Below are positions 3,286-17,693 of a DNA stretch of 21,538 nt, piece by piece. The notes beneath the pieces were generated by a model. That model had not been told where the DNA came from. It saw only the letters and a list, made by a program, of their open reading frames with translations, and made no database searches. The number at the start of each line of letters is the position of its first letter. Within the stretch, counting starts at the first letter, position 1. This stretch comes from a virus. The position numbers and the translations under genes are program-made. The DNA is taken from positions 1 through 21,538 of IMG/VR virus record IMGVR_UViG_3300047564_004647; one strand, given 5' to 3'.

Positions 3286-3936
3286 ATGAAACTCATCACA
3301 GAAGAAGTCTCACAAGTTAAATTCATTACCGAAGGTAGGGGTGCAGAAAAGAAAATGTATATTGAAGGAGTTTTCCTTCAAGGTGATATCTGCAACCGTA
3401 ACGGAAGAATGTATCCTATGGATACTCTTTCCCGCGAGGTAAAGAGATATAACGAAGCATTCGTTGCAAAGGGTCGTGCTCTTGGAGAACTCGGTCATCC
3501 GGATGGACCAACTGTCAATCTTGATCGTGTTTCTCATAAGATTGTTTCTCTTGAACAAAAAGGAACAAACTTCATTGGCAAAGCACAACTCCTAGAAACT
3601 CCTATGGGTAAGATTGCCAAGTCTCTTATTAGTGAAGGTGTTTGTCTCGGTGTTTCTTCTCGTGGTGTCGGTTCACTCAAGATGACCAATGAAGGTCACA
3701 AAGTTGTTGGTGAAGATTTTATGCTTGCAACTGCAGCAGATATCGTAGCCGACCCTTCCGCTCCTGATGCATTTGTTCAGGGAATTATGGAAGGTAAAGA
3801 GTGGGTTTGGGAAGGAGGAATTCTTCGTGAAAGACTTGCTGAACAAACAAAACGCAGAATTAACACTCTTGTAGATGAAAAAACTCTTCAAGAGCATAAA
3901 ATTCAATTGTTTCAAGAATTCTTAGGAAATCTTTAA
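3286..3936 (+). CDS. 21: Prohead core scaffold protease gp21
   Basis: A 216-residue protein of the herpesvirus-assemblin-like phage prohead protease family (T4 gp21 is 212). This serine protease sits inside the prohead and, after assembly, cleaves scaffold and capsid proteins after glutamate. The likely catalytic histidine is His71 in GELGHPDGP. The nucleophile is Ser124 or Ser125 in LGVSSRGVGS. Residues 35-45 (ICNRNGRMYP) are a conserved substrate-site segment of the family. It starts two bases after the preceding stop, in the 67-x-21 transcript, and is followed by a late promoter for scaffold gene 22. Cleavage after Glu within (I/L)-x-Glu bears on gp23 and the CTS proteins downstream. Confidence 0.95.
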   Translation: MKLITEEVSQVKFITEGRGAEKKMYIEGVFLQGDICNRNGRMYPMDTLSREVKRYNEAFVAKGRALGELGHPDGPTVNLDRVSHKIVSLEQKGTNFIGKAQLLETPMGKIAKSLISEGVCLGVSSRGVGSLKMTNEGHKVVGEDFMLATAADIVADPSAPDAFVQGIMEGKEWVWEGGILRERLAEQTKRRINTLVDEKTLQEHKIQLFQEFLGNL

Positions 3937-3976: not shown

Positions 3977-5188
3977 ATGTCCGTTGGTAGAAATTTACAA
4001 GAAATGGAAAACGTAGTAACCAAAGGGGCTGCACCTGCCGAACCAATGCAATCCGGTAACAAGTCTGGAGTAGTTACTCCAGGTCAAACTGGTGCTTGGG
4101 AAGATTTGGGTGGACCAACCCCAGATAATTATCGTCCCGATGACGATTCGGCAAAACTCAAAGATCCTGCCACAACTCTTTCACAAGTTAAAGATGTTGT
4201 AAATGCAAAGGCAGCTGCAGCAGAATCTTCTCATTCTTCAGCAACTCCTGTTCCAACTCCTGGTCAAGGAGTAAAGGAAGAAGTAGAAGAAGATGAGGAT
4301 CTTGTTACCGATGAGGAGATTATCTCTGAAGCAGAAATGAGCGCCGAAGAAGATGATGAAGATTCTGCCGAAGAAAAAGGTGAGCATAAGGGTGTTAAAG
4401 GTAAAAAAGGAGCTCCTGCAAAGGAAGAAGAGGATGAAGAAGTAAAAGAAGAGTTTGATATCGAAGAAGATGTCAATGCACTTCTAGCAGGAGAGGAGCT
4501 TTCCGAGGAATTCCAAGAGAAAGCACGCACAATTTTCGAAGCAGCAATTAAATCGAAGGTTGCTGAAATCAAAGAAGAGCTTCAGGCATCCTACGAGGCA
4601 ACCCTCGTAGAAGAGATCGAAGCAATTAAAGAAGGTCTTGTTGATCGTGTTGATGCATACCTTGAGTATGTTGCTGATGAGTGGATTGCTGAAAATGCAC
4701 TCGCAGTTGAGCACGGTCTCAAGACTGAAATGACCGAATCATTCCTCCAAGGAATGAAGAGTCTTTTTGAAGATCATTATGTAACAATCCCTGAAGATAA
4801 ATATAATGTTATCGAGAGTATGGTAGATAAACTTGATGAAATGGAAGGAAAACTCAACGAGCAAATCGAAAAGAATGTTGCTCTGAATAGAAGATTAGCA
4901 GAGTCGGTTGCTGATGTAATCTTTGCCGATGTCACTGAGGGTCTTGCACTTTCTCAGAAGGACAAACTCGCTTCTCTTGCCGAAAATGTTGAGTTTGATA
5001 GTGAAGAGAGCTATCGTGAGAAGCTGGTAACTCTGAGGGAATCTTATTTCCCAACCAGAACAACTGGTACTCAAAAAGACGACTCGGAAACTTTATCTGA
5101 AAGCACCGATGTCCAATCCCAGCAACCTATGGTTGATGGAAGAATGGCAACGTATCTTCAGACTCTAGGTAGAGTCGCTAAACTGTGA
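3977..5188 (+). CDS. 22: Prohead core scaffolding protein gp22
   Basis: A 403-residue acidic, helical protein between the protease and capsid genes, as in T4 (gp22 is 269 residues). gp22 forms the inner core on which gp23 assembles and is then destroyed by gp21. Residues about 95-165 are dominated by E, D and K repeats (EEVEEDEDLVTDEEIISEAE), followed by long amphipathic helices to about residue 360. The extra length compared with T4 lies mostly in this N-terminal acidic region. The C-terminus (MATYLQTLGRVAKL) resembles the conserved gp22 end. It is driven by an exact late promoter. A perfect 6-base inverted repeat spans its last codons (5161-5176). Confidence 0.9.
   Translation: MSVGRNLQEMENVVTKGAAPAEPMQSGNKSGVVTPGQTGAWEDLGGPTPDNYRPDDDSAKLKDPATTLSQVKDVVNAKAAAAESSHSSATPVPTPGQGVKEEVEEDEDLVTDEEIISEAEMSAEEDDEDSAEEKGEHKGVKGKKGAPAKEEEDEEVKEEFDIEEDVNALLAGEELSEEFQEKARTIFEAAIKSKVAEIKEELQASYEATLVEEIEAIKEGLVDRVDAYLEYVADEWIAENALAVEHGLKTEMTESFLQGMKSLFEDHYVTIPEDKYNVIESMVDKLDEMEGKLNEQIEKNVALNRRLAESVADVIFADVTEGLALSQKDKLASLAENVEFDSEESYREKLVTLRESYFPTRTTGTQKDDSETLSESTDVQSQQPMVDGRMATYLQTLGRVAKL
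5161..5176 (+). repeat. Small inverted repeat at the end of gene 22
   Basis: GACTCT-AGGT-AGAGTC is a perfect 6-base stem with a 4-base loop ending 12 bases before the gene 22 stop. There is no T tract, so it is not a standard terminator. It could affect mRNA stability or processing between scaffold and capsid genes, or be chance. Confidence 0.4.
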
Positions 5189-5237: not shown

Positions 5238-6653
5238 ATGCAAATGTTCAATGCGGAATATTTGCAGGAGAAGTGGGCACCCATTCTAGATTACTCCGGA
5301 ATGGATCAGATCAAAGATGCACATCGTAGATCTGTAACCGCTATCCTGCTCGAAAACCAAGAGAGAGAACTACGTGAAGAGCGTGAGTTCCTCTACGAGT
5401 CTCCAACTAACGGAACCGCTTCTGGTGCTTCTGGTGCTGGATTCGGTGGCAGCGCACAAGGATTCAGCGCTGGTCCTACCGCAGGTTTCGACCCCGTTCT
5501 GATTTCTCTAATCAGACGTTCAATGCCTAACCTGATCGCTTACGATCTGTGCGGCGTTCAGCCAATGAATGGTCCTACTGGACTCATCTTTGCAATGCGT
5601 TCACGTTACACCAATCAGAGTGGCGTTGAAGCATTCTACAACGAAGCAAATTCTGCATTCTCTGGTCAGGATGCTGGATTCGATGTAACCACCGGATTTA
5701 CTGGCGCTAGCGTCGGTATGGGTACTACCGCTCAGGGTGGTCTTAATCCTTCGATTCTCGATGTTTCTAACCAAGCTAACAATGCTCTTGGTGCTGATCA
5801 ATATAACGTTGGTCAGGGTATGCGTACCGATAGTGCAGAAGCACTTGGTGATGCTGCTGGAAACAACTTCAACGAGATGGCATTCTCAATCGAGAAAGTC
5901 ACCGTTACTGCAAAGTCACGCGCACTCAAGGCTGAGTACTCACTTGAGCTAGCTCAGGACCTCAAGGCAATCCACGGTCTGAATGCTGAAGCGGAATTAG
6001 CAAACATTCTCTCAACAGAGATTCTTGCTGAAATCAACCGCGAAGTTATTCGTACCATCTACAAGATTGCTAAGCCTGGTGCTCAAGCAAACACCGCTAC
6101 CGCTGGTACTTTTGACCTTGACGTTGACTCCAACGGTCGTTGGTCGGTTGAGAAGTTCAAGGGTCTTATCTTCCAAATTGAGCGTGATGCAAACGCAATT
6201 GCACAGCAAACTCGTAGAGGGAAGGGTAACACGATCCTCTGCTCTGCAGACGTTGCTTCGGCACTTGCAATGGCAGGAGTTCTTGATTACACCCCAGCAC
6301 TCAACGCTAACCTCAACGTTGATGACACCGGTAACACCTTCGCTGGTGTTCTCCAAGGTAAGTACAGAGTCTACATTGACCCATATTCGGCAAACGTATC
6401 ACCTAATCAGTTCTACGTTGTTGGTTATAAGGGTTCTTCACCTTATGATGCAGGTCTCTTCTATTGCCCATATGTTCCCCTCCAAATGGTTCGTGCCGTT
6501 GGGGAGAACACCTTCCAGCCTAAGATCGGCTTTAAGACCCGCTACGGCATGGTCGCCAATCCATTCGCTGAAGGTTCGACTCAGGGTCAGGGTCTGCTCA
6601 CAACCAACGCTAACACTTACTACAGAAGAGTTAAGGTAGCTAATCTGATGTGA
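5238..6653 (+). CDS. 23: Major capsid protein gp23
   Basis: A 471-residue HK97-fold major capsid protein, slightly shorter than T4 gp23 (521), as is usual in cyanomyoviruses. It forms the hexameric capsid lattice. The helical N-terminal scaffold-binding region (residues 1-54, ending EREFLYE) should be removed by gp21. FLYE-SPT at residues 51-57 fits the (I/L)-x-Glu rule, giving a mature protein starting near Ser55. A glycine/alanine/serine-rich stretch follows (60-80). Conserved core segments include RRSMPNLIAYDLCGVQPMNG near 90-110 and PFAEGSTQGQ with NANTYYRRVKVANLM at the end. The GC content is visibly higher than in neighbours, as expected for very high expression. No gp24-like vertex gene follows. 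Confidence 0.97.
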   Translation: MQMFNAEYLQEKWAPILDYSGMDQIKDAHRRSVTAILLENQERELREEREFLYESPTNGTASGASGAGFGGSAQGFSAGPTAGFDPVLISLIRRSMPNLIAYDLCGVQPMNGPTGLIFAMRSRYTNQSGVEAFYNEANSAFSGQDAGFDVTTGFTGASVGMGTTAQGGLNPSILDVSNQANNALGADQYNVGQGMRTDSAEALGDAAGNNFNEMAFSIEKVTVTAKSRALKAEYSLELAQDLKAIHGLNAEAELANILSTEILAEINREVIRTIYKIAKPGAQANTATAGTFDLDVDSNGRWSVEKFKGLIFQIERDANAIAQQTRRGKGNTILCSADVASALAMAGVLDYTPALNANLNVDDTGNTFAGVLQGKYRVYIDPYSANVSPNQFYVVGYKGSSPYDAGLFYCPYVPLQMVRAVGENTFQPKIGFKTRYGMVANPFAEGSTQGQGLLTTNANTYYRRVKVANLM

Positions 6654-13440: not shown

Positions 13441-14265
13441 ATGAGAGAACAAGAAGTTAGAGAGCTTTATGAAGCTTATATGCAGGTTCATCAATCTCAA
13501 GAAGAAGTAGAGCAACTTGATGAGAATGTACAAGGTGCCGTTGCCGGTGCTCTCAAGAAGGGTGCTGATTTTATGAAGACAAATCCTGTTGGTAAAGCAG
13601 TTAGTTCGGTTATTGCCCCTGTCGGTAAGGGTAAAGGTACTGTTACTGCATCTCAACAGAAGCAAACAATCTCTCAGAATGAAGAATTTGAGCAAGTTGA
13701 TGAAGATGCAAACTACGATAGAAATCGTAGGAGAGCGGCACAGAGAGCTGCTGCAAGAAACGAAGCAAGAAGACAAGGAAAAACCGGCAGTGTTCCTGGT
13801 GTAGGTTATGTATCACCAAGACCTGAAAGAGAAACCTATAGAGATTCTGCTGGTGTGGAGCGTCATACTTCCGGTGCTAGAATGCCTAAAAGAGAAGATC
13901 AAAAAGAATCATATGATCTCTTTGATGTCATCCTAGAGCACCTAATTGCCGAAGGTTATGCCGATACAAATGAAGCGGCACTTGCTATTATGGCAAATAT
14001 GAGTGAGGAGTGGAGAGAGAGTATTGTTGAAGAACTTGAGCAACTTGCTGAAATCTCACAGAAGACTGCTACAAGAGCATATGCTGCCAGCTCAACAGGT
14101 GAGTTTGAAGGAATGGATTCTCCACGCGATGTAAAAAGAACTGATAGACTAAGAGGTCATATTGAAAGAAAGTTTGGTAAAAAAGCAGCAAAACATGCTG
14201 ATAGAGCAGCGCACTCCATGACATTTGGGCGTAAAGGTGCTGGTGGTATGGGACCTAAACCATAA
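13441..14265 (+). CDS. Putative virion or packaged protein, late-expressed
   Basis: A 274-residue protein with an exact late promoter. The N-terminus MREQEVRELYEAYMQVH contains LYE-A at residues 9-12, matching the LYE-S site proposed for gp23, so cleavage by the prohead protease is plausible. The middle (about 85-165) is basic and R/A-rich (RNRRRAAQRAAARNEARRQG). A helical block follows at about 160-200 (LFDVILEHLIAEGYADTNEA, then IMANMSEEWRESIVEELEQ), a motif I recall in several cyanomyovirus structural proteins. The C-terminus is basic, ending GRKGAGGMGPKP. I infer a DNA-associated head protein. No enzyme motif is visible. Confidence 0.75.
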   Translation: MREQEVRELYEAYMQVHQSQEEVEQLDENVQGAVAGALKKGADFMKTNPVGKAVSSVIAPVGKGKGTVTASQQKQTISQNEEFEQVDEDANYDRNRRRAAQRAAARNEARRQGKTGSVPGVGYVSPRPERETYRDSAGVERHTSGARMPKREDQKESYDLFDVILEHLIAEGYADTNEAALAIMANMSEEWRESIVEELEQLAEISQKTATRAYAASSTGEFEGMDSPRDVKRTDRLRGHIERKFGKKAAKHADRAAHSMTFGRKGAGGMGPKP

Positions 14266-16698: not shown

Positions 16699-17259
16699 AT
16701 GAAAACATTTCAGGAATTTATGATAGAATGTTATTCTATCCAAGAAACTTCTCTTACTCGTGTAATGAGCAAGTCTGAAAAGGGTGGAATGGCAATTCTT
16801 TCGGGTCAAAGAGGAGATAAATCAAAGTCCGAAAATAAGGCAAGGTCTGCAAGAACCGAAAGAAGAATTAGAGGTGCTGGTCTTCCAGGACCTACTAAAG
16901 TTTCTGGACGTTATACAGAAAACCCAGGTACACCAGATGAGAAAAAGGTGGGTGAAAAATCTCACGTAGTTTCTTCTGGTAAAATGGGTAAGAGAAAGTT
17001 CAAGAAGACAATCGAGAAACTTGGAACCGAAGGAGGATTGAAGCATAAGCGTAATGCTCCAGAAGGTTCATCTAAGGACGACCAAGATTCTGTATTGATT
17101 CAACGCAAACCAAAAGGATCTGCTACACTCAAAGGAACTTCAAAAACATCTTGGCCAGGCAAAGGAAAGAATGTTGGAGTTGGTAAAATGAAACCAGGAA
17201 GAACTGGTGAGTTTGATACAAAAGTCAAGAACAAAACATTTACTTATGAAGAAGACTAA
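16699..17259 (+). CDS. Probable capsid-packaged internal protein with MKTFQEFM targeting peptide
   Basis: A 186-residue basic protein. It begins MKTFQEFMIE, nearly identical to the capsid-targeting sequence MKTYQEFIAE of T4 internal proteins IPII and IPIII, which sends them into the prohead and is removed by gp21 after Glu10. Glu10 is conserved here. The body (from about residue 20) reads SLTRVMSKSEKGGMAILSGQ, then SENKARSARTERRIRGAG and VSGRYTEN..EKSHVV, resembling a small phage domain related to DUF3293 (uncertain). The C-terminal half is K/G-rich and ends TGEFDTKVKNKTFTYEED. I infer that it is packaged with DNA and delivered to the cell. It overlaps the next ORF by 14 bases. Confidence 0.75.
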   Translation: MKTFQEFMIECYSIQETSLTRVMSKSEKGGMAILSGQRGDKSKSENKARSARTERRIRGAGLPGPTKVSGRYTENPGTPDEKKVGEKSHVVSSGKMGKRKFKKTIEKLGTEGGLKHKRNAPEGSSKDDQDSVLIQRKPKGSATLKGTSKTSWPGKGKNVGVGKMKPGRTGEFDTKVKNKTFTYEED

Positions 17260-17437
17260 ATTTCCATTTGACCACGTAGTCAAATATGATACCAAAGAAG
17301 TTTGGGTAAAGTGTGACAGTGCAATTACTGCTATGGGTATTCCTGCAATGGTGAATGAATATTATCCAGGATACAAGGGTCATATTGGAAGTGAAGAATA
17401 CCTGAATAAACTACGTAATGAATTGGTGAAACCATAA
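17246..17437 (+). CDS. Small unidentified protein
   Basis: A 63-residue ORF starts at ATG 17246, inside the end of the preceding gene (14-base overlap), and reads MKKTKFPFDHVVKYDTKEVW, then KCDSAITAMGIPAMVNEYYP and a basic end. A longer GTG-started frame from 17207 is possible but would overlap the upstream gene much more. It has no transmembrane segment or known motif. A late promoter overlaps its stop codon. Confidence 0.65.
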   Translation: MKKTKFPFDHVVKYDTKEVWVKCDSAITAMGIPAMVNEYYPGYKGHIGSEEYLNKLRNELVKP

Positions 17438-17440
17438 ATA
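17433..17440 (+). promoter_or_regulatory. Late promoter for the 77-residue CTS protein
   Basis: CATAAATA (7 of 8 to TATAAATA) overlaps the preceding stop and ends 19 bases before ATG 17460. Confidence 0.7.
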
Positions 17441-17459
17441 TCTAAAAAAGTCTGTAAAG

Positions 17460-17693
17460 ATGAAAACATTTCAAGAGTTTATGATGGTTTTTGAAGGTAT
17501 GGATATGCCTGCATTTAAAAAAAGGCGTAGAGAACTTCAACGTAAAGCAGACTCTGATGATGCTAAAAAGAGAGGGCATGTTGATAGATTAACTGGAAAA
17601 CCATATGGAACGGCAGAAGCAGAATCTAGAAGAAAAAATTTAAATCCTGCTGAAAGGGAGTCCAGACGCAAGTTTGCTGAAGACCCAGACTGA
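17460..17693 (+). CDS. Small basic probable internal protein with MKTFQEFM targeting peptide
   Basis: A 77-residue protein shares its first eight residues, MKTFQEFM, with the 186-residue protein upstream, again matching the T4 internal-protein targeting peptide. A gp21-type site follows at VFE-G (residues 10-13). The mature remainder is very basic (FKKRRRELQRKADSDDAKKR, then ESRRKNLNPAERESRRKF), like a DNA-condensing or DNA-co-packaged peptide. It has its own late promoter. After the TGA comes the repeated regulatory unit of the CobS-like gene. Confidence 0.75.
   Translation: MKTFQEFMMVFEGMDMPAFKKRRRELQRKADSDDAKKRGHVDRLTGKPYGTAEAESRRKNLNPAERESRRKFAEDPD

Follow-up and report, generated by a model that had tools for sequence, protein, structure and literature searches.

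Two open reading frames of a viral DNA record begin with the same eight residues, MKTFQEFM. This raises the question of whether their products, here called P1 and P2, are carried in the phage head in the manner of the internal proteins (IPs) of phage T4 and, if so, what they would do in the host. The record (IMG/VR entry IMGVR_UViG_3300047564_004647) was analyzed over its positions 1 to 21,538, and this stretch of 21,538 nucleotides is referred to below as the window. Its DNA relatives are T4-like phages of Synechococcus and Prochlorococcus, the nearest being S-SRM01 (76%). We consider it reasonably probable that P1 is a SAM-lyase-like enzyme that is made late, carries a T4-type capsid-targeting leader, is loaded into the head and injected, and destroys SAM early in infection.

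The two reading frames and their surroundings

The shared start, the basic bodies and a late promoter upstream of each frame had been pointed out in the initial annotation, and these observations were confirmed, the promoters in the form of late-promoter-like words (Table 1). The mature P1 domain has a pI of 10.3. When the 21.5-kb record was scanned for exact matches, the DNA motif for MKTFQEFM was found at two sites, i.e., the starts of P1 and P2 only, and a reversed control pattern gave no match. Searches of Pfam, PHROGs, NCBIfam and PADLOC assigned no family to P2, and PADLOC and NCBIfam also gave no match for P1.

As had been proposed, the prohead protease gp21 is encoded in the window, and it is found together with gp22, i.e., both genes are present in the same record as P1 and P2. 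The open reading frame after these genes is presumably gp23, an assignment made by its place and known sequence rather than by a family search; a scan of its product for L-x-E↓[AGST] gave a single site, located at residue 54 (LYE↓S; here and below, the arrow marks a cleavage position).

A role as a dedicated partner or inhibitor of P1 was weighed for the 63-aa frame at the end of P1, and this assignment was rejected. Because the frame occurs at 88 P1 loci as well as at five loci that lack a P1 match, and is missing beside distant P1 homologues, it seems rather to go with the adjacent MoxR/CobS gene. Elsewhere in the window, a 274-aa open reading frame (13441-14265) displays another leader-like start (MREQEVRELYEAYMQVH). 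In L022, a protein similar to that encoded by this frame is fused directly to a P2-like segment, and the virion-annotated gp89 of S-SCSM1 begins with MDSKTFNSLSEAYAAVY. This type of start may represent another class of leader for head targeting.

Table 1. Features of the window that are discussed in the text.
Feature	Position	Strand	Basis
gp21 prohead protease homologue	3286..3936	+	Pfam Peptidase_S77 E=5e-36; PHROG 207
gp22 scaffold homologue (prohead core)	3977..5188	+	Pfam T4_CASP E=4e-81
gp23 major capsid homologue (presumed)	5238..6653	+	ORF; site scan
ATAAATA, late-promoter-like, before a 53-aa ORF, about 190 nt 5' of P1	16507..16513	+	sequence
P1: leader and SAM-lyase-like domain, 186 aa, pI 10.1	16699..17259	+	ORF; Pfam PF23780; fold search; relatives
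P1 predicted capsid-targeting leader, residues 1-16 (MKTFQEFMIECYSIQE)	16699..16746	+	F4, F7, E16 conservation; T4 CTS rules; T4 IP sequences
P1 SAM-lyase-like core, residues 33-137, with G70/Y72/E86/Q129	16795..17109	+	Pfam 33-105; model; conservation
63-aa ORF, start overlapping the P1 stop	17246-17437		
ATAAATA, late-promoter-like, 20 nt 5' of P2	17434..17440	+	motif class enriched at tagged genes
P2: leader and small basic protein, 77 aa, pI 9.8	17460..17693	+	ORF; relatives with E↓GMxMKDF
P2 predicted leader, residues 1-12 (MKTFQEFMMVFE), predicted cut before G13	17460..17495	+	sequence; E-G junction recurrent in relatives

Comparison with the leaders of T4 internal proteins

In the public T4 record, ipII and ipIII start with MKTYQEFIAEA, as the initial annotation had stated, and ipI starts with MKTFKEFTSTTTPVSTITEA, i.e., MKTFKEF. 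The T4 leaders are 10-19 residues long and gp21 cleaves after L/I-X-E; in the IPIII leader, targeting resides mainly in residues 4 and 7, and processing in residues 8 and 10 (PMC9026906). With IPI, IPII and IPIII, P1 shares the N-terminal MKT[FY].EF with its two aromatic residues (F4 and F7), an L/I-x-E motif 10-19 residues in (I14-Q15-E16↓T17), a basic mature protein, and a virus that also encodes gp21 and gp22; the layout of the longer IPI leader resembles that of P1. The body of P1, in contrast, is a SAM-lyase-like domain unrelated to the T4 internal proteins, its host is cyanobacterial, and its packaging and cleavage are predicted. P2 also has F4 and F7, and the VFE-G site assigned to it is present as V-F-E12↓G13, which is near to the gp21 rule but not an exact match; the E-G junction recurs among P2 relatives.

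Conservation of P1 was assessed in 21 diverse relatives, clustered at 85% identity. In this set K/R2, F/Y4 and F7 are kept (F/Y4 and F7 in 21/21). Glu10, which had been described as a conserved cleavage residue of P1, is found in only nine of the 21, whereas Glu16 is invariant. The length of the leader varies within the family (MKTFKEFIHE↓SSL, MRTFAEFVELQE↓TSL, MKTFQEFMIECYSIQE↓TSL), and because a Glu before (S/T)SL is common to these leaders, Glu16 is a better predicted site than Glu10, i.e., P1 would be cut at IQE↓TSL.

The motif as an N-terminal signal

Upon scanning IMG/VR with a back-translated MKTFQEF-type motif, at least 113 distinct starts were obtained. Among the matches listed, an upstream in-frame stop is found at all sites, at a median distance of six codons and in 101 of 113 cases within 20 codons, and the bodies of the tagged proteins are mostly unrelated, 43 representatives having in common only M1, K2, T3, F4, E6 and F7. 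Because of this proximity to upstream stops and the dissimilarity of the bodies, the motif is a signal at the N-termini of proteins that otherwise have little in common. Among the same matches, the late-promoter-like word CTAAATA is located upstream, within 60 nt, of 37% of the tagged starts compared to 4% of 536 controls (p=5e-20), where the controls are gene starts of the same loci and related sequences were merged only if their first 40 residues were identical. In phage S-CREM2, a looser motif is found at four of 219 N-termini and at two of 933 internal Met residues. The enrichment at N-termini in related phages that the initial annotation had anticipated is seen both in the IMG/VR scan and in S-CREM2. 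The cytidylyltransferase of Pelagibacter phage HTVC008M has only a weak leader (MKTLKELL) and, therefore, the tag does not extend to all phages of the T4 type.

The domain of P1

The folded-looking domain noted in the initial annotation is best matched by a phage SAM-lyase family. Over residues 33-105, P1 matches the SAM lyase family of Pfam (PF23780) with E=2.2e-6 and 28.1 bits, at a cutoff of 28, and P1 relatives with the same leader reach 59-70 bits (1e-16 to 1e-19). The earlier suggestion of DUF3293 (PF11697) is not supported: P1 gave no match to this family, and its relative L139 scored 20.5 bits against a cutoff of 25. An AlphaFold model of moderate confidence (pLDDT 61.8), built from 22 window and IMG/VR sequences, displays a beta-alpha-beta-beta-alpha-beta core, consistent with the alpha-beta (GlnB-like) fold of Svi3-3. 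The top PDB fold matches of the model are the two known SAM lyases of phages, i.e., Svi3-3 (6zm9, E=0.011) and, with a target TM of 0.65, T3 SAMase (7ock, E=0.05), and T3-type SAM hydrolases are found among the viral-library fold matches (E 1e-5 to 1e-3). PDB sequence-profile searches with P1 identified no SAM lyase; their sole match, a photosystem subunit (E=0.086), was attributed to chance.

The catalytic residues of Svi3-3 are G56, Y58, E69 and Q104 (PMC7877911), and the T3 SAMase equivalent of E69 is E68. In a local hhalign alignment with T3 SAMase, of low probability but in a sensible register, G70-x-Y72 of P1 falls on GCY and Q129-D130-S-V on Q-D-C-V, while the equivalence of E86 was read by eye from an E-K-S/T motif. 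The resulting Gly-x-Tyr, Glu, Gln pattern is the same as that of Svi3-3 and T3 SAMase. Because G70, E86 and Q129 are found in 21/21 and Y72 in 19/21 of the diverse relatives, P1 is likely to have SAM lyase activity; DNA condensing, which had also been suggested, is unlikely to be its main role. T3 SAMase differs in that it lacks such a leader and is made post-entry as an early protein, whereas P1, for which activity is predicted, combines a packaging-type leader with late-promoter-like signals.

P1 could also be packaged and injected with a fold that is no longer enzymatic, serving as a basic internal protein associated with DNA or binding a partner, e.g., host methionine adenosyltransferase (MAT). 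Such a role would agree with the very basic mature domain, the modest model and borderline Pfam score, and with the heteropolymers that MAT and T3 SAMase form together (PMC8406200; structure 7ock). However, a dead enzyme is not expected because the catalytic residues are kept across P1 relatives that share as little as about 30% identity (Gly, Glu and Gln in all, Tyr in nearly all), and we regard this explanation as unlikely.

The P1 domain is also found inside longer proteins: in the open reading frames from 7377 in L030 and from 3649 in L044, the domain and its leader (GKTFEQFMVECYSIQETSL) are preceded by another basic region, beginning with MQFQEELLDERTL.

Proteins found in virions of related phages

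Mass spectrometry of virions has been published for leader-bearing proteins of several relatives (PMC10665884, PMC9602691, PMC3037559). For S-CREM2, 52 of 219 proteins are listed as detected in CsCl-purified virions (Table 3 in PMC10665884), including gp6 (WNL50925.1) with 19 unique peptides. This protein is homologous to P1 over both leader (MKDFDSFLEE) and domain, with 44% identity, but is longer (414 aa) as a result of an additional C-terminal part. The N-terminal pattern M[KR].[FYL]..[FYL][ILMVF] is carried by gp6, gp13, gp14 (kinase) and gp154 (cytidylyltransferase), all four of which are in the virion list, and by none of the 167 proteins outside this list (Fisher p=0.003, an indicative value because the pattern was picked after seeing the family; looser variants give p=0.01-0.03). 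Of the six virion proteins that the same paper classifies as "non-structural", three begin in this way, and in a fourth, the Cas9-like gp12, KPLRFASFMAEAA is found close to the N-terminal end.

These data bear on the possibility that the MKTFQEF leader has another role, e.g., in translation initiation or as a mobile gene-start cassette. The leader DNA is almost identical between P1 and P2, so that it could be moved as DNA, but the divergent forms MKKFSAFLNEA, MKNFSSFLTEA and MRTFAEFVELQE keep protein-level features only. The residues retained here are those to which T4 mutagenesis mainly assigns targeting, i.e., 4 and 7 (PMC9026906), and the finding that all four S-CREM2 proteins with such an N-terminus are in the virion list also argues against this role, which we consider highly improbable.

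The NMNAT/cytidylyltransferase of S-SM1, S-SCSM1 and S-CREM2 virions bears the leader. That of S-SM1, reported from virions (PMC3037559), begins with MKKFSAFLNEA, and the same type of start is found in the orthologues of P-SSM3, S-RIM2 and S-CRM01; the virion-annotated S-SCSM1 NMNAT begins with MKSFLQFLKEAA. The S-CRM01 kinase was compared at the level of its sequence (MISFDQFLSEKK). S-SCSM1 gp30 is tagged without being annotated as a virion protein, which counts against the interpretation favoured here.

Two further observations concern individual proteins of these phages. The S-CREM2 gp12 "Cas9" (L088:7704-10313) and its S-H34 homologue (L085:965-3898) have the leader-like stretches KPLRFASFMAEAA and AGFSSFLKEAEE about 15-28 residues in, and the Cas9 name looks doubtful for both. 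A small conserved protein starts with MKTFKQFMSESVNISGDFNGNLYVN in S-SCSM1 (gp30, L224:44215-44535) and with MKSFKSFLSESVNISGDFNGNLYIN in S-SZBM1 (L087:7583-7900).

The initial annotation described P1 and P2 as packaged, injected proteins for host take-over. Capsid targeting is supported by the T4 likeness, the restriction of the motif to N-termini and, above all, the published virion data for a P1 homologue and for other proteins with this N-terminus, and the predicted packaging of P1 is well supported; injection and host take-over are steps that we infer.

Alternatively, P1 may function only in the producing cell, late in infection, by lowering SAM, in which case its presence in virions would be incidental carry-over. 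The late-promoter-like words 5' of the tagged genes fit this explanation, as does the caveat of the S-CREM2 authors that carry-over in CsCl preparations cannot be excluded (PMC10665884). It leaves unexplained, however, both the leader common to unrelated virion-associated proteins and the invariant L/I-x-E site; moreover, according to the same paper many highly expressed non-structural proteins went undetected in S-CREM2 virions (PMC10665884). We consider such a function quite improbable. None of the three alternatives accounts at once for the tag, the virion data and the conservation of the active site.

The S-CREM2 authors proposed that the virion SAM hydrolase enters the host and protects incoming DNA from restriction (PMC10665884); the available part of that article does not discuss a capsid-targeting leader for gp6. 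A search of full-text literature, in which subscription journals are thinly covered, yielded no paper linking a cyanophage SAM lyase to a capsid-targeting leader.

Distribution and a wider set of cargo proteins

Relatives of P1 were found in at least 490 IMG/VR stretches and in 16 phage records. In the closest relatives the gene is located between the peptidase and MoxR/CobS genes, while a divergent branch of the domain (33 records) is found near neck and terminase genes in P-SSM2, P-SSM4, S-WAM1, P-TIM40 and S-SZBM1. Here, the domain is preceded by a leader or leader-like stretch (e.g., MRTFQEFLQLCE↓GG, ESFSDFLNE↓GN, GKSFKEFLEE↓GN, FITYREFIAE↓GN). In S-SZBM1 gp194 (708 aa), P2-like, "DFWHPD" and SAM-lyase-like modules are joined in one chain; P2-like, similar "DWWHPD" and SAM-lyase modules are also found as separate tagged genes, and pieces of gp194 are present in 337 phage records in differing combinations.

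Long mosaic proteins are encoded beside gp16 in S-SZBM1 (gp194, L087:4836-6959), P-TIM40 (113, L222:713-3022), S-WAM1 (099, L219:2540-3958) and syn9 (gp114, L221:1997-3328). Their modules are elsewhere separate tagged genes, and they contain internal leader-like stretches and Glu sites. These mosaics are possible cargo polyproteins that would be cut by gp21.

ADP-ribosyltransferase-like domains are found in further proteins with MKTFKEF or MKTFQEF tags (L120:6037-6816, L165:5389-5841, L170, L148 and L185); L120 matches ART-PolyVal (E=1e-23) and L165 gives a weak RNA 2'-phosphotransferase match. Such tagged genes, e.g., that in L120, and the use of an injected head enzyme recall T4 Alt, a packaged and injected ADP-ribosyltransferase; T4 Alt has, however, no counterpart in the window, and P1 belongs to another enzyme class.

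A broader interpretation, which we put forward tentatively and at somewhat less than even odds, is that one T4-type leader of cyanomyoviruses loads a large, exchangeable set of injected effectors. This set would comprise SAM lyases, ADP-ribosyltransferases, kinases, NMNAT and small basic proteins, and the long proteins in which several such modules are fused in many genomes, e.g., S-SZBM1 gp194, P-TIM40 113 and S-WAM1 099, would be cut by gp21 into individual effectors inside the head.

Proposed mechanism

The simplest account of the mechanism and ALTERNATIVES would be T4-type loading, starting with late expression. The leader of P1, with its aromatic residues 4 and 7, would dock into the gp22 prohead core, and gp21 would cut after Glu16 such that a basic domain of 170 residues is kept among the packaged DNA. 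At infection, mature P1 would enter the host together with the DNA and, presumably as a trimer like Svi3-3, split SAM into MTA and homoserine lactone. The loss of SAM would cut off the supply for restriction and further methylation reactions that depend on it, ahead of the expression of the first phage gene. P2 would be a second small basic cargo with the same tag. Docking, cleavage, injection, catalysis and the anti-defence role of P1 are all inferred steps. What looks new is a T4 CTS that carries a SAM-lyase-like domain, within an apparently wide set of cyanophage cargo.

Implications

The tag may mark proteins that these viruses inject with their DNA. If the leader is a packaging tag, sequence alone would suffice to draw up a list of the injected proteins, and this list could be compared with virion mass-spectrometry data that are already available. 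Such a list addresses the question of which of the hundreds of uncharacterised genes of cyanophages have their effect just as infection begins. If true, a packaging role of the leader would explain the repeated and puzzling detection of NMNAT, kinase and SAM hydrolase in cyanophage virions, and a pre-loaded SAM lyase would act before phage genes are read, in contrast to the early-expressed T3 SAMase.
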